64,000 nt of DNA, from NCBI GenBank assembly GCA_016839165.1, contig CP069300.1, forward strand, positions 5,394,001 to 5,458,000, read 5' to 3'. The stretch comes from Bradyrhizobium sp. PSBB068 (GTDB lineage Bacteria > Pseudomonadota > Alphaproteobacteria > Rhizobiales > Xanthobacteraceae). Both the position numbers and the translations under genes were made by a program. Numbering within the stretch: position 1 is the stretch's first letter; the number at the start of each line of letters is the position of its first letter. This document shows, piece by piece, positions 7,430-23,640 of this stretch. The notes below the pieces were generated by a model that worked only from the letters and a program-made list of their open reading frames with translations, searched no databases and had not been told where the DNA came from.

Positions 7430-7903
7430 TCACGTCGCGCAGCACGCGGAAGAACCTGGCGCTGCCTGCGGGGCGCAGCAGGCCGATTGCTTGCCATGCG
7501 CGACGCGCGCCGTGTTCTCTCCGGTGCCATCACCATAGACCGTGCTCTCGCCGGTCGTGTGAAAGGTTTCCCAGGCGATGCCTGCGGGATCGTCGATCCA
7601 CGACTTCTCGGACTTGGCGTAGCAACAGGCCGCCTCGCCCTGCTCGATGATGTTGCCCCCCGCCTGACTCAAGCGGTCGTAGACCTCGTGAAGCTCCTCT
7701 TGGCTCTCAACCTGAATGCCGAGATGATCCAGGCCGGGCTCGCGGCCTCTGGCCGAAATGGCGAAATTCACGCGAGGATCATCGAGCATCCACTTTGCGT
7801 AATCCGTCTTGAGAACCGTTGGTTGGGCAGCGAACAAGGCAGAGTAGAAGCCTACGGACTGTGAAAGATCGCTCACGGTGACGTGGACATGAAGGCGCTT
7901 CAT
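7430..7903 (-). CDS. arsI: ArsI-type C-As lyase (glyoxalase-fold dioxygenase)
   Basis: Vicinal-oxygen-chelate protein of 157 residues. Start ATG 7903 is chosen because AAGGA lies just upstream and the protein begins MKRLHVHVTVSD, as in the family. Metal ligands expected for ArsI are visible as His5, His60 (GLDHLGI) and Glu112 (WETF), and the vicinal thiols that bind trivalent organoarsenic as Cys93-Cys94 (ACCYAKSEKSW). These features mark ArsI, which cleaves the carbon-arsenic bond of methylarsenite and aromatic arsenicals to give arsenite, rather than a generic glyoxalase. The C terminus has two further Cys-Cys pairs (ACCAPQ and SACCAT). Databases often call such proteins CadI, cadmium-induced. 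It lies between arsR and arsC. Confidence 0.88.
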   Translation of the reverse strand: MKRLHVHVTVSDLSQSVGFYSALFAAQPTVLKTDYAKWMLDDPRVNFAISARGREPGLDHLGIQVESQEELHEVYDRLSQAGGNIIEQGEAACCYAKSEKSWIDDPAGIAWETFHTTGESTVYGDGTGENTARVAHGKQSACCAPQAAPGSSACCAT

Positions 7904-8839: not shown

Positions 8840-9439
8840 ATGGCTACACAAAGCAATATCCACTTCTTTACAAATTGGGCCAAAGAGCGTCTCGACGAAA
8901 TGGACGCAACGGTGACCTCGCTTGAGGGCAAGGCTGCCGAGGTGCAGGCCGATGTCCGCGACAAAGCGAAGAAGGTTCTTGCTGATCTGCGCTCGCAGCG
9001 TGATGACTTCCGTGACACCATGAAGAAGCAGTCGGAAGCTAACGAGGCCGCGTGGATCCAGACAAAAGCAAAGCTTGAGGCTGACTGGGGCTTGTTCCAG
9101 GCCGAGGTCAAGAAATATGTCGAAAGCTTCGGCAAGCAAATCGAGCACCAGCAGGCGACGTTCAAGCTTCAAGCCGATGCCCAATTGAAAGCGTGGCGCG
9201 AAGTAGCCGAGAAGCTTGGCCGCGATGCCAAGAAATTCGCCTCTGAGCGTCGGGACGATATCGACGCCGCCGTTAAGCGCATGAACGCAGATGCAGTCGA
9301 GGCGGAGAAAAAACTAGAGAAGTTGAATCAGGCGGGAACCCAGTCATGGTCCGCACTCATGGCGGCCTTGACGGAAACGCGCACGGCCTTCGATCGCGCC
9401 AATGAGGCTGCGCGGGAGGCGTTCAAGCGAGCTGCTTGA
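8840..9439 (+). CDS. Coiled-coil protein of unknown function
   Basis: A 199-residue hydrophilic protein predicted to be almost entirely alpha-helical and rich in Ala, Lys, Glu and Gln. Long heptad-like stretches are visible, for example ATVTSLEGKAAEVQADVRDK and VKRMNADAVEAEKKLEKLNQ. There is no signal peptide or membrane segment, and it has no Cys. I recognise no catalytic domain. The start is supported by GGAG about 10 bases upstream. It stands alone: a FixK/FNR-type box lies upstream and a strong terminator follows at 9464, so it is probably a monocistronic gene induced at low oxygen. A structural or envelope/stress role is possible but unproven. Confidence 0.8.
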   Translation: MATQSNIHFFTNWAKERLDEMDATVTSLEGKAAEVQADVRDKAKKVLADLRSQRDDFRDTMKKQSEANEAAWIQTKAKLEADWGLFQAEVKKYVESFGKQIEHQQATFKLQADAQLKAWREVAEKLGRDAKKFASERRDDIDAAVKRMNADAVEAEKKLEKLNQAGTQSWSALMAALTETRTAFDRANEAAREAFKRAA

Positions 9440-9463
9440 TGGAGCACCCGGTTAGACTCGGAG

Positions 9464-9489
9464 AGACCGCTGCCAGGCGGTCTTTTTTT
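9464..9489 (+). terminator. Rho-independent terminator
   Basis: Perfect 7-bp stem AGACCGC/GCGGTCT with a 6-base loop (TGCCAG), followed by a run of seven T, 24 bases after the coiled-coil gene stop. Confidence 0.9.
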
Positions 9490-9985
9490 GTTCGACGGGG
9501 ATCAAGAATTGACATTCTCGGCGTGTGTCGACGGGCGAACGCGACCGGACCGCCTGGGACTGGCAGCGTTATGTCGCCTCTTGGCCCGTGGCTGACCTCA
9601 GCCCAGAGCGCGGCGATGTCCGCTTCCGAGAGGTGACCCGACCAAGGGCATGCCGGCTGCCGGGGGCAGCCTTTGACCCAAAGCGGCGGTAGCCCCTCTC
9701 CGCGCCATTGCACACGGTTGTCTTGACAGCCTGAACGAGCGTTTGCCTGAAATAGATTCGCTTTCGGCTTGCTCCAAGTGCCGCAGTTCCATGTTATCGC
9801 GATCATACAAGCCGAGCCTGACGTGCAGCACGCACAAAGCCGAGTATTGGCGTTTGAAACCTGGGTTCGACTTGGCTCAACTCGGATTGCTGGCGCATTT
9901 TCAATGGTCCCTAACGGTTCGCAAAGCGGTATAAGTGAACATAATCGCCCCGAGTACAGGAGCTGACTGCACGAGAAAGGTGATC
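9490..9985. other. Gene-free stretch
   Basis: About 500 bases between the terminator and the PAS gene. Short open frames exist on both strands but none has convincing family features. ATGTCCGCTTCCGAG near 9616 faintly resembles intergenic motifs at about 8690 and 10645 and may be a decayed copy of a dispersed repeat. Confidence 0.4.
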
Positions 9986-12543: not shown

Positions 12544-12769
12544 GGCTTGCTTGCCTCCCGGTTGGCTGCATCCCAGGCATGAGCCTAAGCGGGACAGCGT
12601 CGCCCGCGCGGCCTGGACCGGTTCGCCGGCCATACCGGCAGCCATGCAAGATTTCTGAATAATAGAAGTGTACTGTTGATTTGCCCGACGTGTCAAGTCG
12701 CCGGGTCGAACCCCGGCAACCTGTCGCTCCTTTGCATGGGGTTGTTTTCGATATTTTTGCAGTGCCACT

Positions 12770-13963
12770 TCAAACCAGGTTCAGGTCCTTCGGCTTGATG
12801 CCGGTGAAGATGCGCTCGAGGCTCGCCTGCTGCAGGCCGTAGACGTGCTGGATCAGGCCGGCGAAGAACGCCTTGTAATCGGTCAGCACAGGAAAGTCGC
12901 GGTTCTGGAACAGCGTCGCCTGGGCGACCTGGACCTGCTCGCCGGCCATCCGGCCGCCATTGATGCCGCCGCCCATCACCCAGTAGACGCTGCCATGGCC
13001 ATGATCGGTGCCGCGGTCGCCATTCTCGCGGAAGGTGCGGCCGAACTCGGAGATCACGACCACGACGGTGTCGCGCCACATCTGAGGGCCGATCTCTTCG
13101 GAGAAGCCGGCAAGGCCCCGGCCCAGTTCGCCGAGACGGTCGGCGAGATAGCCGGTCGCGGCGCCCTGGTTGACGTGGGTGTCCCAGCCGCCGACGTCGA
13201 CGAAGCCGAGGTTGAACTGCTCGCGCATCAGGCGGCCGATCCGCCGCGCCGACAGTTCGAAGCCGCGCGGCGACACCGCGCCGCGGTTCGCCGCCATCAT
13301 CTCCTCGGAGACCGACTTGTAGACGTCGTCGCGGACGCGAAAACCTTCGGACACCGAGTTGGCGAGGTCGCCCTTGCCGTACATGTCCCTGATCAGCCGC
13401 GCCTGGCGGTCGTCGACACCCGGCTTGCTGACGCTGGCGATGCCGATGTTCGGGATCTGGTTCTGGCCGCGGAAGATCAGCGGCAGCTGGTCGGTGAAGG
13501 AGATCGGCTTCACCCGCGTCAGCTCGGTCGCGAGCCGGCTCATGAAGCCGGAGCGATAGTCGCGGCTGCCGCCGACCGCCTGGCCGAGTTCGATCGTGTC
13601 CTGGGTTTCGAAATGGCTGCGCGAAAGGTCGTCGCTGGTGCCGGCAAACGGCACGAACGCGATCTCGCGCTTGGCCCACAGCGGATAGATCGAATCGCGC
13701 AGCGCCGGATGCAGTCCCCATCCGGCGTCGAGCGCCAGCGCGGCGTTGGGATTGCCCGCATCGGGCCGCGCCACCGCAAGCGTCGGGCGCGAGGCGTAGT
13801 AGAACTCGCTGCCGACCGGCACCACCACGTTGGCGGCGTCGTAGGCGCCGCGCAGGAACACCACCAGCATGCGCGCGTCGGTGGCCGGCGCCGCCCAGAC
13901 CCGGCCGGCCAGGGTGAGCGAGGTGGAAGCGGCGAAGGCCTTGATCAGTTCGCGGCGGTTCAT
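12770..13963 (-). CDS. Exported DUF1501 (sulfatase-like) protein
   Basis: 397 residues with a twin-arginine signal (MNRRELIKAFAASTSLTLAGRVWAAP), then the DUF1501 domain of the alkaline-phosphatase/sulfatase superfamily: VVFLRGAYDAANVVVP, FAGTSDDLSRSHFETQD, VDVGGWDTHVNQG, VVVVISEFGRTFRENGDRGTDHGHGSVYWVMGG. The DTH and TDHG motifs are likely metal sites. Start ATG has GGGAGG 7 bases upstream. It follows the DUF1800 gene by 15 bases and these two families are regularly neighbours in bacteria. Their biochemical role is not established. An internal fragment is duplicated at 5861-6026. Confidence 0.9.
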   Translation of the reverse strand: MNRRELIKAFAASTSLTLAGRVWAAPATDARMLVVFLRGAYDAANVVVPVGSEFYYASRPTLAVARPDAGNPNAALALDAGWGLHPALRDSIYPLWAKREIAFVPFAGTSDDLSRSHFETQDTIELGQAVGGSRDYRSGFMSRLATELTRVKPISFTDQLPLIFRGQNQIPNIGIASVSKPGVDDRQARLIRDMYGKGDLANSVSEGFRVRDDVYKSVSEEMMAANRGAVSPRGFELSARRIGRLMREQFNLGFVDVGGWDTHVNQGAATGYLADRLGELGRGLAGFSEEIGPQMWRDTVVVVISEFGRTFRENGDRGTDHGHGSVYWVMGGGINGGRMAGEQVQVAQATLFQNRDFPVLTDYKAFFAGLIQHVYGLQQASLERIFTGIKPKDLNLV

Positions 13964-13978
13964 CGTCGAACCTCCCTT

Positions 13979-15547
13979 TCAGTGCATGAACTCGGGTGAC
14001 GACAGAAACAGCGTGTTCCAGTCCTGCGGTGAGACCGCCTGGTCGAGCGCGGCGAGCGTGGTCGGGCTCAGCGTCTGCCTGATGTTGCTGAAATAGAGCC
14101 CGTTCATCACGAGCGGAAACGCCGGCTGGTCGACGGCATTGGGCTCGTTCGGCTTGAACAGTCCGGCCGATCCCGAGCCGATCGCGCGCGCGATCTCGAA
14201 ACGCAGCATCATCTGCCCGGGACCGTTCCAGGCCGCCGACAGCATCGAATAGCCGTCGGGCGTCTCGTGATTGAACAGACCTTCGGACAGGCGATTGAGC
14301 CAGCCCTGGATCGGCAACGTATTGAGGATCACCTTGTTGTCGTAGGCGAGCCGCACCGACGACATCACGTAGAGCATCGGGTCCTTGAACTTGGCGCCGC
14401 CCTTCAGGCTCGCGGTGAATTCCGGCGCATGAACCAGCGTCGACATCACGGCCGCGATATCGCCGTCGGTCTTCTGGAAGGTCTGCGCCATCTGCTGCAC
14501 CAGCGCCGGCGGCGGATTGTCGGACACGAAATAGGTCGCCAGCTGCTTTGCGATGTGCGTGGCGGTCGCGGGATGATGGCAGAGAATGTCGAGGGCCTCA
14601 TCGACCTCGGCGAGGCCGCGGCCCTTGATCTGATGGCCCAAGAAAGCCTTGTCGCCGAAATCGTGGCGCGCCGGATTGAACTCGAAGGCACCTTCGCGAA
14701 CCAGCTGCGACTGCTGCTCGGGCTTCAGCTTCGGATCCTCCGACTTGAAGTCGATGCCGACGCCGGTGAGGATCCGCGCCAGCGCCTCGACATCGGCCTG
14801 GGTGTAGCCTGAGCCGACGCCCATGGTATGCAGCTCCATGATCTCGCGGGCGTAGTTCTCGTTGAGGTGACCGGCCGCGTTATCGGCGTTGTCGAGGTAT
14901 CGCAGCATCACCGGATGATGCAGCGTCGCCGACAGCAGGTTGCGGAACTTGCCGAGCGCGTTGGCGCGGATCGCGCGGTCCTCGTAGTCGCCGACCAAGA
15001 CGCGGATGTTGGCCTTGTACTGGTGAACGTTGAAGTGGTTGAACCAGAACCAGGTCAGGCGTTCGCGCAATTGATCCGGAGCATAAAGCGCGCGCAGGAT
15101 GGTGCGGGCCGCGGCCTGCCTGGCGCGGTCGTTCATGGCCTGCTGATAGACCTGTTGCGCCGCCTTCTTCTGCTCCGGATCGGCTACCTGGTTGGCGGAT
15201 TTGCCTTGCTGGTCGAACGAGGCCGCGATGTCGAACGGGAAGCGATGCACGTCCGGCATCGCCTCGATCTGCTTCTGGACGGCGTCCGGCAATACGGTGC
15301 CAGCCGGATGCAGTTGCTCCTGCAACCAGCGCTCGGTGCCGACCTCTCGCAGATGCGCCGCGCTGGACGCGTTGACGCCCCAGGTCAGGCGATCGAGCAG
15401 CGCGATGTCCTGCGCGGCAAGCTCGGCCGCCCGTGCCGGCTGGTGATATGCCACCAGCGCGGCGATCGTGCCGATCATCAGTTTCGCGACTGTCCGCGAT
15501 CCGAGTGTGGCCGTGGTGCTCATCAAAGGCTGACCTGCTCGGCTCAT
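13979..15547 (-). CDS. Exported DUF1800 protein
   Basis: 522 residues. The N terminus carries an export signal (VAKLMIGTIAALVAYHQPARAAE). The remainder is the DUF1800 domain: LLDRLTWGVNASS, RERLTWFWFNHFNVH, NLLSATLHHPVMLRYLDN, NENYAREIMELHTMGVGSGYTQADVEALARILTG, and HDFGDKAFLGHQIKGRG. It is predicted to be periplasmic and helical. Function is unknown; it pairs with DUF1501 downstream (15-base gap) and the caspase-fold gene upstream (12-base gap), so the three are probably one transcript. Start ATG 15547 has GAGGG upstream; ATG 15523 would shorten the signal region. Confidence 0.9.
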   Translation of the reverse strand: MSRAGQPLMSTTATLGSRTVAKLMIGTIAALVAYHQPARAAELAAQDIALLDRLTWGVNASSAAHLREVGTERWLQEQLHPAGTVLPDAVQKQIEAMPDVHRFPFDIAASFDQQGKSANQVADPEQKKAAQQVYQQAMNDRARQAAARTILRALYAPDQLRERLTWFWFNHFNVHQYKANIRVLVGDYEDRAIRANALGKFRNLLSATLHHPVMLRYLDNADNAAGHLNENYAREIMELHTMGVGSGYTQADVEALARILTGVGIDFKSEDPKLKPEQQSQLVREGAFEFNPARHDFGDKAFLGHQIKGRGLAEVDEALDILCHHPATATHIAKQLATYFVSDNPPPALVQQMAQTFQKTDGDIAAVMSTLVHAPEFTASLKGGAKFKDPMLYVMSSVRLAYDNKVILNTLPIQGWLNRLSEGLFNHETPDGYSMLSAAWNGPGQMMLRFEIARAIGSGSAGLFKPNEPNAVDQPAFPLVMNGLYFSNIRQTLSPTTLAALDQAVSPQDWNTLFLSSPEFMH

Positions 15548-15559
15548 GGTGTCACGCCC

Positions 15560-17863
15560 TCAGTGTTTGCATTTGCCGGGAGGGCACGCCGGCGCGGCGC
15601 GGGCTGGTGCCGCGGGCCTTGGCGGCGGCGCTGCCATCCGCGGCGGCGGTGCTGCGCGTTGCGCCTGCATCGCCGGCCGCGGTGGCGGCGGCGCAGCACG
15701 TGGGGCCGGCGCCGGTGCCGGACGCGGCTGCACGGCTGCGGCACGCGGCGGCGGCGGCGCTGCGGCCCGTGCCGGCGCGGGCCGCGAGACCGGCGGCGGC
15801 GACACCGCGGCATGCGCCGGTGCCGAACGCGCAGCCGGCGTCGTCCGTGCCGGTGCCGCGCGGCTCGCCGGCCCTGCCGCGGTTGCGGGCTTTACGTTTG
15901 CGGTCGGCGCGGTCGTGGCATGCATGAGCTGTTGCTGCCGTCCTGGTTTGCCGGCGGTCGCGGGCGAGGCCGGCGCGTTTGCTGTCGGTGCAACGCCGGG
16001 CTTGGCTGGAGGCGCAGGTTGCGCGTTGGCAGGCGCCATCGCCGTCGCCGGCTTGCCTGGCGCTGGCGCATTCGGCTTCGCCCCGGGTTGCGTAGAGCCG
16101 GGCTGCGCGGCGCCCGGCTGCATGACGCCCGGCTGGGCGGCGCCATGCTGCTGCGTGGCGTTGGCCGGCGCGGTCGCCGACTGCGGCAGCGGCGGTCCAT
16201 TCTTCGCGCCCGGCAAAGTGTGCGCGCCCGGAGCGCCCATCGCGTTCGGCGTGGTGGCGGCGTTGGGCGCCGCGCCAGGGGCTCCCATCGCGCCTTGCGC
16301 CGGCGTCGCGCCTTGCGGACCGCCTGGTTGCACCAGGTTGGCGCGCTGCATCGCGGCGGCCGGCAGTTGCGGAGCCGCCGTGACCGGCGCCCCGCCCATC
16401 GCTGCGGTCACCCCGGCGGCATGGAGCTGCGCCGGCGTGGGGTTGGGATTGTTGATGACGGTGTTGATGACCGTCGTGTTGTGGATGTTGTTGAACACGA
16501 TGTTGTTCTGCGGCGGCACCACATAGGCCGGCGCGGCGACATAGGCCGGCATCGCCACGAAGAACGGCGTCGGCAGCACGAACAGGCCGATCGGCGGCGG
16601 CGGCGGCGGCAGCACGACGAAGTCCGGCGGCGGCGGCGGCAGGAAGAACACCGGCGGCGGCGGCGGCGGCGCGAAGGCGAACACCGGATCGCTGTAGTAG
16701 AGCACCGGACGGTCGACATAGACGATCTCGTCGGGCGGCGGCGGCGGCACGTCGTAATCGATCGCCGCGAACTGCGGCGGCGGCTCCAGCGCGGCCGACA
16801 GATAGGCGAGCCGGCGCCTTGCGTCGTAAGCATGCGGCCCGCGCGGATAACGCCGCAGATACGACCAATACGCGTCGGCCGTGTCGGCGTTGTAGGTGCG
16901 CCGCCAGGTGATCGCCTCGCGCCGCGCCGCCACGATCGCGCGCACCCGCTTGGCCAGCGGATCGGTCGGATAGGCCTGCAGGTAATCCTCATAGCCTTGC
17001 AGCGTGTCGCGCTCCAGCGCCGCCGCATAGGCATCCTGCGCCGGGAAATCGCGGATCGGCTTGGTGCGCAGTCCGGCATCGACCTGCTGCGGCGGCGCAT
17101 CCGGCTTGCGCTCGAAGAACATGAAGGGCGCGTCGACCTTCTGCGCATTCCACGGGATCTCGGCGCCCTTGGTCATTTCGTTGACCCGCAGGCGAACGCG
17201 GTCGAACACCTCGGGCAAGGTCAGGCCGCCGGCGCGAATCATTTCCGCCAGCGCCTGCGCGTAGGGCCCGTAAGGCGGCGCGCCGTCGGGGGCGACGGTG
17301 CCCGGCGCCGAATTGAAGGCGATCAGCATCTTCGGTTCGGGATCGACCAGCGCGAGGCCGCCGGCCAGCGGCTGGCCGTCCTTGGCGAAGGGATTGCTGC
17401 GCGCCGCATCGAGCACGATCACGCCGGCCTTGATCGGCAATGCCGAGAGCAGATGGCTGTAGTCGGAGATGCGGATCGCCTCGACCGGCACGTCGGTGTC
17501 GCGGGCGATCTTGGCGTCGACCGGCACGAAGTAGTTCTCGCCGGTGAGTTGCACGCCGTAGCCGGCGAGGTAGACGAAGGCGACGGCGTTCGGTCCGGCG
17601 TCCTGCACCTTCTGGATGAAGTCGCGGAACGACTTGCGGAGCGTCTCGCTATCGAGATCGCGCGCCCCGATCACGTCGAAGCCGGCGGCCTGCAAGGTCT
17701 GCGCCACCAGTCCGGCGTCGTTTGCGGCGGTCTGCAGCGCGCCGGCCTGGTAGGCGCCGTTGCCGACGACGAGCGCGAGGCGCTTCTCCTGGTCCTCCGC
17801 ATGGACAGGAAGCGCGGCGAACGACACCAGACCGACGATCAAAGCCCACAGAATGCGCGCCAT
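15560..17863 (-). CDS. Exported caspase-fold protein with both catalytic residues replaced (pseudocaspase), proline-rich tail
   Basis: 767 residues. A signal peptide (residues 1-22, LVSFAALPVHAED) is followed by a caspase/peptidase C14 domain at about 27-255: KRLALVVGNGAYQ, NDAGLVAQTLQAAGFDV, NYFVPVDAKI, AFNSAPGTVAPDG, MTKGAEIPWNAQ. In active bacterial homologues the dyad lies in YSGHG and D(A/S)CR. Here these are LAGYG (Tyr102) and DAAR (Ala154), so both His and Cys are lost and proteolysis is not expected. A middle region (about 255-370) has repeat-like helices (DTLQGYEDYLQAYPTDPLAKRV). The rest is low complexity: several polyproline runs, then Gln-Pro-Gly and Ala-Pro repeats ending PPGKCKH. 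It is the first gene of the DUF1800-DUF1501 operon. A scaffold or binding role in the periplasm is an inference. Confidence 0.88.
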   Translation of the reverse strand: MARILWALIVGLVSFAALPVHAEDQEKRLALVVGNGAYQAGALQTAANDAGLVAQTLQAAGFDVIGARDLDSETLRKSFRDFIQKVQDAGPNAVAFVYLAGYGVQLTGENYFVPVDAKIARDTDVPVEAIRISDYSHLLSALPIKAGVIVLDAARSNPFAKDGQPLAGGLALVDPEPKMLIAFNSAPGTVAPDGAPPYGPYAQALAEMIRAGGLTLPEVFDRVRLRVNEMTKGAEIPWNAQKVDAPFMFFERKPDAPPQQVDAGLRTKPIRDFPAQDAYAAALERDTLQGYEDYLQAYPTDPLAKRVRAIVAARREAITWRRTYNADTADAYWSYLRRYPRGPHAYDARRRLAYLSAALEPPPQFAAIDYDVPPPPPDEIVYVDRPVLYYSDPVFAFAPPPPPPVFFLPPPPPDFVVLPPPPPPIGLFVLPTPFFVAMPAYVAAPAYVVPPQNNIVFNNIHNTTVINTVINNPNPTPAQLHAAGVTAAMGGAPVTAAPQLPAAAMQRANLVQPGGPQGATPAQGAMGAPGAAPNAATTPNAMGAPGAHTLPGAKNGPPLPQSATAPANATQQHGAAQPGVMQPGAAQPGSTQPGAKPNAPAPGKPATAMAPANAQPAPPAKPGVAPTANAPASPATAGKPGRQQQLMHATTAPTANVKPATAAGPASRAAPARTTPAARSAPAHAAVSPPPVSRPAPARAAAPPPPRAAAVQPRPAPAPAPRAAPPPPRPAMQAQRAAPPPRMAAPPPRPAAPARAAPACPPGKCKH

Positions 17864-18058: not shown

Positions 18059-18730
18059 ATGCCAATCGCCGGACAAGGCATGCTGCTGACCTCGATGGAT
18101 ATCGACAGCTTACACGAAGCTGAATTCAACCGCTGGTACGACCGCGAGCATCTCGAAGAACGTGTCGCGATCGAGGGATTCGAGGAGGCCCGCCGCTACG
18201 TCGCCCATGACGGCAAGCCGAAATATCTCAGCCTCTACTCCACCACCACCTTCGAGGTGCTTGAGAGCCCGGCCTACCGCAAGGCGCTCGCCAACCAGAC
18301 CGACTGGTCGAAGACCAACATCGCGCGCTTCCAGAACATGATCCGCGGGGTGGCGCGCATCACCATCAGCCGCGGCGTCGGCCGAGGCGCCGCGCTCGGC
18401 ATCATCCGCCTCCGCCCGCCGGCCGAAGGAGCGGACCGGCTCCGCGCTGCATTGCGGGAGCAACTCGATCCCGCCGCGCGTGATGGCATCATCTCGATGC
18501 ATCTCCTGGAGAACGATCCCGTGCTGTCGAAGCCGCTGACGCCGGACGCTGGCAAAGCCGATCCCGGCGCCGGTGACTGGTTCGTCTTGATCGACGCCAC
18601 CGACGTCGGCGCAGTCCCTGCGGCCGCGGCCGTCATCACGGGCAACGCAGCCTTGAAACCGATGGTGGTCACCAGCGGCGTCTATCGATTGCTGTGGGAT
18701 ATCGTGAAGAGCGATCTTCCGCGCGGCTAG
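18059..18730 (+). CDS. Conserved protein of unknown function, tandem alpha/beta-barrel-like domains
   Basis: 223 residues, no signal peptide. AAAAGGAG lies 6 bases before the start. The pattern MLLTSMDIDSLHEAEFNRWYDREHLEER with ARRYVAHDGKPKYLSLYSTTTFEVLESPAYRKAL resembles dimeric alpha/beta-barrel (EthD/DUF4286-like) proteins. A second half (GAALGIIRLRPP to the end) looks like a related repeat. Such folds include small monooxygenases and heme or substrate-binding proteins, but I see no decisive catalytic residues. It is divergent from the pseudocaspase gene (195-base gap) and not closely linked to the oxidoreductase operon downstream. Confidence 0.7.
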   Translation: MPIAGQGMLLTSMDIDSLHEAEFNRWYDREHLEERVAIEGFEEARRYVAHDGKPKYLSLYSTTTFEVLESPAYRKALANQTDWSKTNIARFQNMIRGVARITISRGVGRGAALGIIRLRPPAEGADRLRAALREQLDPAARDGIISMHLLENDPVLSKPLTPDAGKADPGAGDWFVLIDATDVGAVPAAAAVITGNAALKPMVVTSGVYRLLWDIVKSDLPRG

Positions 18731-18971
18731 CAACGCAGATTGGCGGTGCGCACATGCTGCACCGCCACATAACGCAATCGAGATTAACGCTACACGCGCA
18801 TCAGCCGCGCGAAAGCAGATGATCGGACAATTTAGCCTTTGCCTTCTCTGGAACGGCTCTAATAAGATAAACCTATGATCCAATTCAAAAACCGGAACAA
18901 CGCCACGTGAGCGTTCGTCGTCAACGATAAGGCCGCGCGGTCAGGCATTTTTGCGCGGGTCAAAGGTAGGA

Positions 18972-20771
18972 ATGAAACCGACTGATATCTCGGCGCCGGA
19001 TTACTTTCATAAAGTAGTCGATTGCCAATGGGCCTGTCCCGCACACACCCCCGTTCCCGAGTACATCCGGTTGATTGCTGAGGGGCGTTACAGCGACGCC
19101 TACATGATCAATTGGAAGTCCAACGTGTTCCCCGGGATTCTCGGGCGCACCTGTGACCGTCCATGCGAGCCGGCGTGCCGCCGCGGCCGGGTCGAGGACA
19201 ATCCGGTCGCGATCTGCCGCCTGAAGCGCGTCGCCGCCGACTTCAAGGACGACATCAAGCATCGGCTGCCGAAGCCGGGGCCGAAGAACGGCAAGCGCAT
19301 CGCGCTGGTCGGCGGCGGCCCTGCTTCGCTTGCCGTGGCGCGCGATCTCGCGCCGCTCGGCTATCACTGCACCGTGTTCGACGGCGATCCCAAGGCCGGC
19401 GGCATGATGCGCAGCCAGATTCCGAAATTCCGCCTGCCCGACAGCGTGATCGACGAGGAGACCGACTACGTCCTCAACCTCGGCGTCGAGTTCAAGGGCG
19501 GCCAGCGCGTCGACAGCCTGAAGCAACTGCTCTCCGAGAACTACGACGCGATCTTCGTCGGAAGCGGCGCGCCGCGCGGCCGCGAGCTCGACATTCCCGG
19601 CCGCAAGGAAGCCGGCGCCAACATCCATATCGGCATCGAGTGGCTCGCCAACGTCTCGTTCGGCCATGTCGAAAAGATCGGCCGCCGCGTCATCGTGCTC
19701 GGCGGCGGCAACACCGCGATGGATTGCTGCCGCACCGCGCGCCGGCTCGGCGGCGAGGCCGTCAAGGTGGTCGTCCGCTCCGGCTTCGAGGAGATGAAGG
19801 CCTCGCCGTGGGAGAAGGAAGACGCCATCCACGAGGACATCCCGATCCTCAACTACATGGTGCCGGTGGCATTCAAGCATGTCGCCGGCAAGCTGATCGG
19901 CGTCACCTTCCAGAAGGTCCGGGCCGAATACGACGACAAGGGCCGGCGCAATCTGGTGCCCTCGGGCGAGCCGGACGAGACCATCCCCTGCGACGATGTG
20001 CTCGTTGCGGTCGGCCAAGAGAACGCGTTCCCCTGGATCGAAGCCGATTGCGGCATCGAATTCGACAAGTGGCACATGCCGAAGGTCGACCCCAAGACGT
20101 TCGTCTCGACCAATCCGAAGGTGTTCTTCGGCGGCGACGCGGCGTTCGGGCCGAAGAACATCATCTGGGCGGTGGCGCACGGCCATGACGCCGCGCTGTC
20201 GATCCACAAGATGCTGTCCGGCGAGGACATCAACGAGCGTCCGCTGCCCGAGGTGCACGTCTCCTCGCAGAAGATGGGCATCCACGAGTGGAGCTACGAC
20301 AACGACATCTCCGCCGACAAGCGCTTCAAGGTGCCGCATCGCGACAAGGTGGTGGCGCTGAAGGACATCCGCGCCGAAGTCGAGCTCGGTTACGACCTCA
20401 AGCTCGCGCTCGGCGAGGCGCAGCGCTGCCTGAATTGCGACGTGCAGACGGTATTCTCCGCGCCGCTCTGCATCGAATGCGACGCCTGCGTCGACATCTG
20501 CCCGATGGACTGCATCAGCTTCACCGAGAACGGCGAAGAGGATGATTTGCGGCAACGGCTGAAGGCCCCTTCGCCGCATCACGACCAGGCGCTGTACGTT
20601 TCCGGTGACCTGAAGACCGGCCGCGTGATGGTGAAGGACGAAGACGTCTGCCTGCATTGCGGACTGTGTGCCGAGCGCTGCCCGACCGGCGCCTGGGACA
20701 TGCAGAAGTACCTCATCGATATGGCTCAAGCGGGATCAACATGTCAGTCCAAAGCCCGATCAGCAGCGTAA
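18972..20771 (+). CDS. GltD-like FAD/Fe-S oxidoreductase subunit of a 2-oxoacid oxidoreductase
   Basis: About 599 residues from ATG 18972 (AAAGG upstream). The N terminus has the GltD-type Fe-S Cys set (CQWACPAHTPV, GRTCDRPCEPACRRG). Then come an FAD-binding segment (IALVGGGPASLAVARDLAPLG) and an NAD(P)-binding segment (RVIVLGGGNTAMDCCRTARRLG). The C terminus has two [4Fe-4S] motifs, CIECDACVDICP and CLHCGLCAERCP. It is predicted to pass electrons between NAD(P)H and ferredoxin-type clusters. The next two genes encode a 2-oxoacid oxidoreductase. The Azoarcus evansii 2-oxoglutarate:NADP+ oxidoreductase has a similar flavoprotein third subunit, so this is probably its counterpart (KorC-like). 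It overlaps the next gene by 31 bases. Confidence 0.88.
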   Translation: MKPTDISAPDYFHKVVDCQWACPAHTPVPEYIRLIAEGRYSDAYMINWKSNVFPGILGRTCDRPCEPACRRGRVEDNPVAICRLKRVAADFKDDIKHRLPKPGPKNGKRIALVGGGPASLAVARDLAPLGYHCTVFDGDPKAGGMMRSQIPKFRLPDSVIDEETDYVLNLGVEFKGGQRVDSLKQLLSENYDAIFVGSGAPRGRELDIPGRKEAGANIHIGIEWLANVSFGHVEKIGRRVIVLGGGNTAMDCCRTARRLGGEAVKVVVRSGFEEMKASPWEKEDAIHEDIPILNYMVPVAFKHVAGKLIGVTFQKVRAEYDDKGRRNLVPSGEPDETIPCDDVLVAVGQENAFPWIEADCGIEFDKWHMPKVDPKTFVSTNPKVFFGGDAAFGPKNIIWAVAHGHDAALSIHKMLSGEDINERPLPEVHVSSQKMGIHEWSYDNDISADKRFKVPHRDKVVALKDIRAEVELGYDLKLALGEAQRCLNCDVQTVFSAPLCIECDACVDICPMDCISFTENGEEDDLRQRLKAPSPHHDQALYVSGDLKTGRVMVKDEDVCLHCGLCAERCPTGAWDMQKYLIDMAQAGSTCQSKARSAA

Positions 20772-22588
20772 ACGACTTCGTCGTCCGCTTCGCCAACGTC
20801 AACGGTTCGGGCTCGGCTTCCGCGAACGAACTGTTCGCGCGTTCGATCCTGCGTCACGGCGTGCCGGTCTCGCCACGCAACATCTTCCCGTCCAACATCC
20901 AAGGCCTGCCGACCTGGTATGAGGTGCGCGTCACCGAGGACGGCCATCTCGGTGCCCGCGGCGGCGTCGACATGATGGTGGCGATGAATCCGCAGACCTG
21001 GGACAAGGACGTCGCCTCGATCGAGCCCGGCGGCTATCTGTTCTACGATTCGACCAAGCCGATGCCGTCGTCGAAATTCCGCGAGGACATCACGGTCATC
21101 GGCGTGCCGCTGACCGCGATCACCAACTCGACCTACACCGATCCTCGGCAGCGCCAGCTGTTCAAGAACATCATCTATCTCGGCGCGCTCTGCGCCCTGC
21201 TCGACCTCGATCCCAAGGTGGTCGAGCAGCTGATCGGCGAGCAGTACAAGGGCAAGGAGAAGCTGCTCTCCTCCAACGTCCATGCGCTGCATCTCGGCCG
21301 CGACTGGGCGCTGCAGAACCTGAAATGCCCGCTCGGGCTGCGGGTGAAGAAATCCGACAAGGTCGGCGACCGCATCTTCATCGAAGGCAACAGCGCCGCC
21401 GCGCTCGGCGCCGTCTATGGCGGCGCCACCGTGTGCGCCTGGTATCCGATCACGCCGTCATCGTCGGTGGCGGAAGCCTTCACCAGCCACTGCAAGAAGT
21501 ATCGCCACGATCCCGAGACCGGCAAGGCGAAATACGCCATCGTGCAGGGCGAGGACGAGCTCGCCTCGATCGGCATCGTGATCGGCGCCTCCTGGAACGG
21601 GGCGCGGGCCTTCACCGCGACCTCGGGTCCGGGCATCTCGCTGATGACCGAATTCATCGGCCTGTCCTATTTCGCCGAGATCCCGGCCGTGATCATGAAC
21701 ATCCAGCGCGCCGGCCCCTCGACCGGCATGCCGACCCGCACCCAGCAATGCGACGTGATCGCCTGCGCCTATGCCTCGCACGGCGACACCAAGCACGTGC
21801 TGCTGTTCCCGGAAGATCCGGCCGAGGCGTTCGAATTCGCCGCCGCCGCATTCGACCTCGCCGAGCGGCTGCAGACCACGATCTTCCTGATGCTCGATCT
21901 CGACATCGGCATGAATCACCGGCTGTGCCGCCCGCTGAAGTGGGACGATGCGAAGCAATATGACCGCGGCAAGGTGATGACCGCGGAGATGCTCGAGGAA
22001 GGCCGCGACTTCGGCCGCTATCTCGACGTCGACGGCGACGGCATCCCCTATCGCACCTATCCCGGCACCCATCCGACCAAGGGCTCCTATTTCACCCGCG
22101 GCACCTCGCGCGACCGCTATGCGCGCTATTCCGAGGAAGGCGCCGTCTACGCCGACAACATGCAGCGCCTGGTGCGCAAGTTCGAGACCGCGCAGGACAT
22201 GGTGCCGCGGCCGCTGCAGGCCAACGCGGCCAAGCCGACCAAATACGGCGTGCTGTATTTCGGCTCGACCTCGCCGGCGATGGACGAGGCGATCGGGATA
22301 CTGGAGGCGCGCGGCCATCAGCTCGACCGCATGCGCATCCGCGCCTTCCCGTTCCACTCCAGCGTCGCGAGCTTCATCGCCGACCACGACTTCGTCTATG
22401 TGGTCGAGCAGAACCGCGACGCGCAGCTGCGTCAGCTGATCGTCAACGAGAACGGCATCGACCCCGTCAGGCTGGTGCCGATCCTGCACTATGACGGCAC
22501 GCCGATCACCGCACGCTTCATCGCCAACGCGATCGGCGACCACCAGGACCACCTCAAGGTGACCCCTCTCCGCAAGGCCGTGACATGA
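20741..22588 (+). CDS. korA: 2-oxoacid:acceptor oxidoreductase, fused gamma-alpha subunit
   Basis: 615 residues from ATG 20741, which lies inside the end of the flavoprotein gene and gives the natural N terminus MSVQSPISSVNDFVVRFANV. The first ~190 residues form the gamma-type domain (NGSGSASANELFARSILRHG). The remainder is the alpha domain: EGNSAAALGAVYGGATVCAWYPITP and the pyrimidine-binding region ATSGPGISLMTEFIGL. With the beta subunit it should oxidatively decarboxylate a 2-oxoacid to acyl-CoA; 2-oxoglutarate is the likeliest substrate by analogy, but pyruvate or branched oxoacids cannot be excluded from sequence. A 4-base ATGA overlap couples it to korB. Confidence 0.88.
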   Translation: MSVQSPISSVNDFVVRFANVNGSGSASANELFARSILRHGVPVSPRNIFPSNIQGLPTWYEVRVTEDGHLGARGGVDMMVAMNPQTWDKDVASIEPGGYLFYDSTKPMPSSKFREDITVIGVPLTAITNSTYTDPRQRQLFKNIIYLGALCALLDLDPKVVEQLIGEQYKGKEKLLSSNVHALHLGRDWALQNLKCPLGLRVKKSDKVGDRIFIEGNSAAALGAVYGGATVCAWYPITPSSSVAEAFTSHCKKYRHDPETGKAKYAIVQGEDELASIGIVIGASWNGARAFTATSGPGISLMTEFIGLSYFAEIPAVIMNIQRAGPSTGMPTRTQQCDVIACAYASHGDTKHVLLFPEDPAEAFEFAAAAFDLAERLQTTIFLMLDLDIGMNHRLCRPLKWDDAKQYDRGKVMTAEMLEEGRDFGRYLDVDGDGIPYRTYPGTHPTKGSYFTRGTSRDRYARYSEEGAVYADNMQRLVRKFETAQDMVPRPLQANAAKPTKYGVLYFGSTSPAMDEAIGILEARGHQLDRMRIRAFPFHSSVASFIADHDFVYVVEQNRDAQLRQLIVNENGIDPVRLVPILHYDGTPITARFIANAIGDHQDHLKVTPLRKAVT

Positions 22589-23640
22589 CCTACATTGCAA
22601 AGCCGAAGTTTCATCACCCCGGCCTGAAGAAGAACGAGCTGGGCTATACCCATCGCGACTACGAGGGCAAGATCTCGACGCTGTGCGCCGGCTGCGGCCA
22701 CGATTCGATCACCGCCTCGATCATCGAGGCCTGCTACGAGCTCTCGATCGAGCCGCACCGGGTGGCGAAGATTTCCGGCATCGGCTGCTCGTCGAAGACC
22801 CCGGACTATTTCCTCGGCAATTCGCACGGCTTCAACTCGGTGCACGGCCGCATGCCGTCGGTGCTAACCGGCGCCAACCTCGCCAACCGCGACCTGATCT
22901 ATCTCGGCGTCTCCGGCGACGGCGACAGCGCATCGATCGGCTTCGGCCAGTTCGCGCATTCGATCCGGCGCGCGGTCAACATGACCTATATCGTCGAGAA
23001 CAACGGAGTGTATGGCCTGACCAAGGGCCAGTTCTCGGCGACCGCCGACCGCGGCTCGAAGTCCAAGAAGGGCGTCACCAACACCGACAATGCGATCGAC
23101 CTGGTTGCGATCGCATTGCAGCTCGGGGCCACCTTCGTGGCGCGCAGCTTCTCGGGCGACAAGACGCAATTGGTGCCGCTGATCGCGGCCGCGATCCGCC
23201 ACAAGGGCGCGTCCTTCATCGACGTGATCAGCCCCTGCATCGCCTTCAACAATCACGCCGGCTCGACCAAGAGCTTCGACTATGTCCGCGAGCACAATGA
23301 TGCGGTGAACCGGCTCGACGTGCTGGTCGGCCGCGAGCCGATCAGCGTCGATTACGCGCCCGGCACCGTGCAGGTGGTCGAGCAGCATGACGGTTCGCGC
23401 CTCGCGCTGCGCAAACTCGACGCCGACTACGATCCGCATGATCGGCTCGGCGCGATGACCTTCCTGCAGAAGCATGCGGCCAAGGGCCAGATCGTCACCG
23501 GCCTGCTCTACGTCGATCCGGACGCCGAGGATCTGCACACCCATCTCGACACCGTCGAGACGCCGCTCAACGCAATGGATGAGCAGGCGCTGTGCCCCGG
23601 CTCGGCCGTGCTGGACAAGATCAACGCCAGCCTACGGTAA
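22585..23640 (+). CDS. korB: 2-oxoacid:acceptor oxidoreductase, beta (TPP-binding) subunit
   Basis: 351 residues. Thiamine diphosphate site: VSGDGDSASIGFGQF (GDG) through IVENNGVYGLTKGQFS. Cys residues for the subunit [4Fe-4S] cluster are visible in STLCAGCGHDS, SGIGCSSKT and SPCIAFNNH. Typical length for the family is about 280-350. It starts inside the korA stop (ATGA). This is the last gene of the operon; the next element is a REP sequence split by an insertion sequence. Confidence 0.9.
   Translation: MTYIAKPKFHHPGLKKNELGYTHRDYEGKISTLCAGCGHDSITASIIEACYELSIEPHRVAKISGIGCSSKTPDYFLGNSHGFNSVHGRMPSVLTGANLANRDLIYLGVSGDGDSASIGFGQFAHSIRRAVNMTYIVENNGVYGLTKGQFSATADRGSKSKKGVTNTDNAIDLVAIALQLGATFVARSFSGDKTQLVPLIAAAIRHKGASFIDVISPCIAFNNHAGSTKSFDYVREHNDAVNRLDVLVGREPISVDYAPGTVQVVEQHDGSRLALRKLDADYDPHDRLGAMTFLQKHAAKGQIVTGLLYVDPDAEDLHTHLDTVETPLNAMDEQALCPGSAVLDKINASLR

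Follow-up and report, generated by a model that had tools for sequence, protein, structure and literature searches.

Bacterial pseudo-orthocaspases, the caspase homologs in which the catalytic His-Cys dyad is lost, are many and have been little tested. Klemencic et al. 2019 report Tyr-Ala among the commonest dyads of the Rhizobiales pseudo-orthocaspases (PMC6426788), and an earlier survey found dyad conservation to be lower, at 75%, in Alphaproteobacteria (PMC3501461). Deletion of SyOC, a caspase homolog of Synechocystis, increased tolerance of oxidative stress (PMC7889975). Here we describe a gene of Bradyrhizobium sp. PSBB068 located at positions 15560–17863, on the minus strand, of a 64,000-nucleotide (nt) stretch of DNA, hereafter the window (assembly GCA_016839165.1, contig CP069300.1, positions 5,394,001 to 5,458,000). 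Its product is a member of the already described Tyr-Ala class of pseudo-orthocaspases: a p20 caspase domain with Tyr and Ala in place of the dyad is followed by a prolonged C-terminus without identifiable domains, and the His-Cys dyad by which active orthocaspases and metacaspases are recognized is missing. Most likely, this gene encodes a probably exported orthocaspase in which the dyad was replaced by Tyr-Ala and which is kept as a non-proteolytic binding protein.

The open reading frame was verified at the above coordinates and encodes a protein of 767 amino acids (aa); all features of the gene given below are on the minus strand. The PF00656 (Peptidase_C14) profile matches residues 27–244 (17132–17785) with an E-value of 1.1e-33 and a score of 117.4 bits, compared to the curated cut-off of 21.4, and an AlphaFold2 model along with fold matches in the PDB supports the caspase fold, which the initial annotation had rightly described as well kept. 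No family was assigned to the protein by NCBIfam, and neither Pfam nor NCBIfam matched anything beyond residue 244 at E 0.01. By eye, the N-terminus, MARILWALIVGLVSFAALPVHA-ED, looks like a signal peptide, as previously noted, and one of the Sec type (residues 1–22, 17798–17863; the predicted local distance difference test score, pLDDT, of residues 1–23 is below 50). The loss of both catalytic residues, the central claim of the initial annotation, was borne out: Tyr102 (codon 17558–17560, motif YLAGYG) and Ala154 (codon 17402–17404, motif VLDAAR) fall in the alignment columns occupied by the catalytic His and Cys in His-Cys paralogs from the same genome, and Tyr102 stands opposite the His of the MALT1 AGHG motif. 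In 8 of the 11 caspase-domain paralogs of this genome, the first of these positions is occupied by His.

That annotation also raised the question whether Tyr and Ala are conserved among orthologs or, conversely, whether orthologs retain His and Cys. A one-genome-per-species scan, with pattern words in which the dyad plays no part, identified 120 confirmed relatives, 80 of which were fetched and provide the dyad counts: 76 are Tyr-Ala, 4 are Gln-Ala, and none is His-Cys. Because His and Cys are absent from both positions in all 80, the dyad loss is beyond chance. These relatives span Bradyrhizobium, Afipia, Rhizobium, Mesorhizobium, and Methylobacterium/Methylorubrum, among others; the loss would predate the split of the carrying genera, or the gene might have been transferred between them. 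A protein search with residues 275–480 yielded 3224 matches, and among the best 120 of these, mostly close relatives of the window protein, 117 are Tyr-Ala and 3 are unaligned at one or both positions.

Of the 80 relatives, 56 are full-length; the other 24 were set aside for a premature end of the contig or frame, for short length, or for masked stretches. Across the 56 and the window protein, Asp49 (17717–17719), Asp152 (17408–17410, two residues before the lost Cys), and Ala154 are invariant (weighted frequency of Ala 1.0), and Tyr102 has a weighted frequency of 0.91. By analogy with the pocket residues discussed in PMC6426788, the two aspartates are likely to form the acidic specificity pocket of pseudo-orthocaspases, which accordingly would be kept; in our own reading, they are the probable equivalents of Asp95 and Asp211 of TbMC2. 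Ten comparisons inside the orthologous clade of the window (group A) gave ratios of nonsynonymous to synonymous substitution rates (dN/dS) of 0.06–0.21 for the caspase domain and 0.17–0.40 for the tail, values that indicate purifying selection on the p20 domain. With the nucleophile missing, the protein is presumably devoid of proteolytic activity. Because the dyad loss is common to all 80 relatives, the fold is intact, and selection is purifying, the protein is best understood as acting by binding and not by proteolysis, in line with the initial proposal of selection for binding rather than proteolysis.

The gene is widespread in the genus, with matches in 103 of 117 genomes (E 1e-60) and a single match in 98 of these 103. 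In this and all other carriage statistics for the genus, relatedness was not controlled for, and the counts depend on the E-value cut-offs; the loci and genomes overlap (for example, locus L080 matches genome G448, and L036 matches G371, which has an identical contig position). Under the preferred reading, the protein would be moved out of the cytoplasm by the Sec system, and the p20 pocket together with a helical domain would serve to bind either basic peptides or a protein partner, which might be one of the active sibling caspases that are exported.

The helical domain (residues 263–358, 16790–17077) has a mean pLDDT of about 87 in the AlphaFold2 model. It is followed by a conserved proline/aromatic-rich region (residues 359–480, 16424–16789) that ends in a short asparagine-rich motif, NNIVFNNIHNTTVINTVIN, and is detectable in Bradyrhizobium, Rhizobium, Mesorhizobium, and Methylorubrum alike. 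The mean conservation of the window residues is 0.68 for positions 369–480 versus 0.32 for 481–740, which belong to a variable Pro/Ala-rich linker (residues 481–758, 15590–16423; the tail dN/dS values given above apply to this part). At the very end, the motif CPPGKC (15569–15586) includes Cys760 and Cys765, the sole cysteines of the protein, and 50 of the 56 full-length relatives have two or more Cys within their final 15 residues. The long linker and the cysteine pair might position or tether the protein in the envelope.

The 11 caspase-domain genes of the genome consist of 8 His-Cys genes, two Tyr-Ser genes, and the Tyr-Ala gene of the window. In two of the His-Cys siblings, L002 and L003, the p20 domain is about 40% identical to that of the window protein, a signal peptide is apparent by eye, and the C-terminal part resembles the helical domain (E 2e-10 for L002 and 1.8e-5 for L003). 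The two Tyr-Ser pseudo-caspases, L006 (G000:C1 6844381–6845037) and L007 (6860537–6861184), are about 15 kb apart, and L006 contains repeats that by eye look like tetratricopeptide repeats.

In the more specific form of the best explanation, which we consider possible but doubtful, the window protein would regulate the cell's own exported, active orthocaspases, pairing with the His-Cys siblings or holding their substrates. Models for such a partner are cFLIP, which acts on caspase-8, and TbMC4 in trypanosomes. This version is favored by the presence of eight His-Cys paralogs and by the two domains and apparent signal peptides shared with L002 and L003. An L003-like sibling was detected in 110 of the 117 genus genomes (E 1e-75), and was somewhat more common in genomes with the pseudo-orthocaspase, 99 of 103, than in the others, 11 of 14 (Fisher p 0.036, a weak association, relatedness uncontrolled). 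Set against this are the 11 genomes in which, at the cut-offs used, the sibling occurs but the pseudo-form does not and the 4 in which the reverse is true, as well as the argument of Klemencic et al. that prokaryotic pseudo-forms are most likely not regulators of the true ones (PMC6426788). A slightly broader and comparably doubtful proposal sees in the Tyr-Ala pseudo-orthocaspases an envelope protein of old standing in Hyphomicrobiales, with a dead pocket kept to hold basic peptides or to pair with exported active caspases built from the same two domains, that is, a bacterial, extracytoplasmic counterpart of cFLIP tethered by the linker and the cysteine pair.

The next two genes, as initially annotated, are a DUF1800 gene (13979–15547) and a DUF1501 gene (12770–13963), both on the minus strand. 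Their products match PF08811 (E 3.6e-134, 448.5 bits) and PF07394 (E 2.3e-41, 142.7 bits), respectively, above the curated cut-offs, and the DUF1501 protein has an N-terminal Arg-Arg (Arg3-Arg4) that is invariant in 19 aligned members. The gaps between the three genes had been given as 12 and 15 bases. The second value holds: DUF1800 and DUF1501 are separated by 15 nt in the window and by 13–16 nt in ten clade orthologs, and a ribosome-binding-like GGGAGG precedes the start in the window (13971–13976, minus strand) and in 9 of the ten. The first applies only if DUF1800 starts at the first in-frame ATG, 15547, which in the 8 of 10 clade orthologs that have it is out of the DUF1800 frame. The conserved start is probably codon 9 (15523), and the caspase-DUF1800 gap then becomes 36 nt here, 33–35 nt in most orthologs, and about 140 nt in L031. 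Both gaps are compatible with co-transcription within the clade, and the three genes there may be co-transcribed.

A sequence scan found no promoter-like or terminator-like sites in the two gaps; in the region as a whole, there was no clear excess of either (1 promoter-like site versus 0.6 in shuffles, 7 terminator-like sites versus 4.4). The only promoter-like site of the region (12667–12696, TTGACA-18-TACACT) lies ahead of a gene for a solute-binding protein that is modA-like, with a score just short of the cut-off of NCBIfam; this gene may be transcribed from a start of its own. A tRNA-like string follows DUF1501, and ARAGORN reports no tRNA in the window. In L022, L031, and L034, where DUF1800 is absent or further off, a palindromic repeat that includes CGGAAAA and its complement, possibly a mobile intergenic repeat, comes soon after the caspase stop codon. 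Divergent from the caspase gene in nearly all clade loci is a gene for a 223-aa protein (18059–18730) for which neither Pfam nor NCBIfam gave a match at E 0.01. Divergently upstream, 18966–23640 encodes an oxidoreductase with 4Fe-4S clusters similar to the glutamate synthase small subunit, also kept in nearly all clade loci, and then two ORFs (open reading frames) that we take to resemble subunits of 2-oxoacid:ferredoxin oxidoreductase. PADLOC produced no match at E 0.01 for the caspase, DUF1800, or DUF1501 proteins, and its library may have no model for caspase defense.

Among the 25 loci of group A (L012–L036), the DUF1800-DUF1501 pair is present in 11; in 5, more than 5 kb of downstream sequence lacks the pair, 8 contigs end too early, and in one, L027, a broken DUF1800 remnant (9188–9591; residues 9–143, in two pieces) without DUF1501 stands beside an open caspase gene. 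The L027 locus indicates that the neighbors can decay alone. At the other 55 loci, some on contigs that end early, tblastn with the proteins of the window found the pair only in Methylorubrum rhodinum (L080), with a gap of 4–178 nt depending on the start chosen. Elsewhere, the caspase gene has other neighbors: dnaE is upstream in 26 loci (Bradyrhizobium, Afipia, and bins), 19 of which also have rpsB downstream, often with small genes in between, so that the dnaE-rpsB interval houses the majority of the fetched Bradyrhizobium and Afipia loci outside group A, and in 9 loci of Rhizobium/Rhizobiales the gene is near tyrS and an acetyltransferase gene (named after L087). In the genome of the window, dnaE and rpsB are 0.7 kb apart, with no caspase between them. 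The caspase tree nests the clade of the window (24 rows, support 98) inside Bradyrhizobium and Afipia (support 99), so that the simplest account is vertical descent followed by relocation; the pair would have become a neighbor when the caspase gene moved out of the dnaE-rpsB interval in this clade. Both this tree and the DUF1800 tree were built quickly, with support values from the SH-aLRT (Shimodaira-Hasegawa-like approximate likelihood ratio test) only, and L035 and L036 were not included in the caspase tree. In these two loci (Bradyrhizobium tropiciagri SEMIA 6148 and B. viridifuturi SEMIA 690, respectively), the caspase frame is broken at the same place, near position 7600, owing to either a sequencing error or a genuine frameshift.

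It appears improbable that the caspase acts as a scaffold for DUF1800 and DUF1501 in a system of three proteins encoded in one operon. This idea is suggested by the single strand, the short gaps free of terminator- and promoter-like sites, the order kept in the 11 group A loci, and the second, independent adjacency in M. rhodinum. The whole-genome carriage speaks to the contrary. DUF1800 of the subfamily found in the window is present in 20 of the 117 genus genomes (E 1e-100), and the caspase occurs in 18 of these 20 and in 85 of the 97 without DUF1800 (Fisher p = 1.0); at these cut-offs, the two DUF1800 genomes that lack the caspase are G311 and G327. In 6 of the 20, the caspase and DUF1800 are on one contig and no more than a few kb from each other; in 3 they are on different contigs, and in the remaining 11 the caspase is located apart or, in 2, is missing. 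In the Methylobacterium group (111 genomes), the caspase and DUF1800 are found in 41 genomes each, and together in 10 compared to about 15 expected; the two are side by side only in G448, which matches M. rhodinum. Furthermore, in all 26 DUF1800-DUF1501 regions fetched elsewhere, the two genes are adjacent, and no caspase was detected with a hidden Markov model that recovered 6 of 6 caspase-bearing sources used as the positive control. Twenty of these regions come from the best order-level DUF1800 matches and 6 from the 11 genus genomes in which DUF1800 is not beside the caspase; 10 belong to the DUF1800 subfamily of the window and 16 are more distant. Together with the remnant in L027, these findings led us to reject the operon as a functional unit in the sense of a general rule, and the partnership suggested by the initial annotation is not supported. 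We regard the DUF1800-DUF1501 pair as probably a chance or regulatory neighbor rather than a required partner.

Several observations weigh against the interpretation of the gene as a maintained, non-proteolytic binding protein with dispensable neighbors. At the threshold used, the gene is absent from 14 of the 117 genus genomes (9 of the 109 more complete ones) and hence is dispensable for some. Three comparisons with more distant relatives gave higher dN/dS values, 0.21–0.39 for p20 and 0.52–0.83 for the proline/aromatic region, and conservation of the dead pocket could be explained by folding constraint alone. Two further points bear on the neighbors and lend some weight to the three-protein system. 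At the level of the order (297 genomes; DUF1800 subfamily defined by 61–100% identity, close caspase relatives by at least 55% identity), all 5 genomes with the DUF1800 subfamily carry the caspase, compared to 20 of the 292 others (Fisher p 3e-6, relatedness uncontrolled). This pattern favors a link, albeit one that is confounded by relatedness and absent within either genus. In addition, the DUF1800 tree requires at least two changes between the linked and unlinked states, which implies that the adjacency arose at least twice, in the Bradyrhizobium clade and in M. rhodinum, and hints at more than chance.

A role in photosynthesis, which PMC6426788 proposes for pseudo-orthocaspases in general on the basis of their distribution, is very unlikely for this gene, the presence of reaction-center genes in the same genome notwithstanding. 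Such genes (PF00124) are found in 11 of the 117 genus genomes, and show no association with the caspase, which is present in 9 of these 11 and in 94 of the 106 without them (Fisher p 0.62); on this basis, we disfavor the link. Tyr-Ala or Gln-Ala relatives also occur in Rhizobium and Mesorhizobium, which are non-phototrophic. The reaction-center genes of the genome of the window are two in number (G000:C1:1611966–1613652), and 106 of the 117 genomes have none. Decay into a pseudogene, or a dead allele confined to one strain, is hardly credible as an account of the gene, given that the frame loss at about codon 200 in L035 and L036 is set against 80 of 80 fetched relatives without the dyad, 56 of them full-length and open and most others ending with the contig, against purifying selection and against the wide carriage in the genus, and for the window copy this reading is refuted by the conservation data.

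The preferred reading, that of an exported pseudo-orthocaspase kept for binding, lends itself to experiment. Because most carriers have a single match, a clean knockout is possible, and because the genome of the window encodes active-type siblings with p20 and helical domains in common with it, regulation of live caspases by a dead one is an idea that can be put to a direct test. The results also weaken the published link to photosynthesis within the genus and caution against taking adjacent DUF1800-DUF1501 genes for partners of the caspase.

With regard to known systems, the paracaspase MALT1 has both His and Cys and is proteolytically active. The window protein has neither of these residues of the MALT1 structures that it matches in fold (PDB 8v4x, 3uo8, and others). 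SyOC of Synechocystis is likewise a prokaryotic caspase homolog without an active dyad, and differs in being cyanobacterial (PMC7889975). DUF1800-DUF1501 is a known adjacent pair with a twin-arginine DUF1501 protein, found also beside bacterial chitin synthase genes or operons (PMC5122149), and is here placed after a pseudocaspase instead. A literature search found no paper that mentions DUF1800 together with a caspase, and two papers, in the passages concerned, mention DUF1501 and a caspase without joining them (PMC4452313, PMC5587647). In the literature consulted, we saw no description of the helical and proline/aromatic regions, the C-terminal cysteine pair, or the active-type siblings with shared domains; in PMC6426788, neither the abstract and selected sections nor a word search of the main text turned up an account of these two regions, of the cysteines at the C-terminus, or of neighboring genes. 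The closest described relatives are the Rhizobiales Tyr-Ala pseudo-orthocaspases of that survey, which share with the window protein the dyad, the bacterial order, and the p20 domain with a prolonged, domain-less C-terminus. The survey treats pseudo-orthocaspases as a class and ties them to photosynthesis (PMC6426788), whereas in this genus the carriage of the Tyr-Ala gene is independent of the reaction-center genes.
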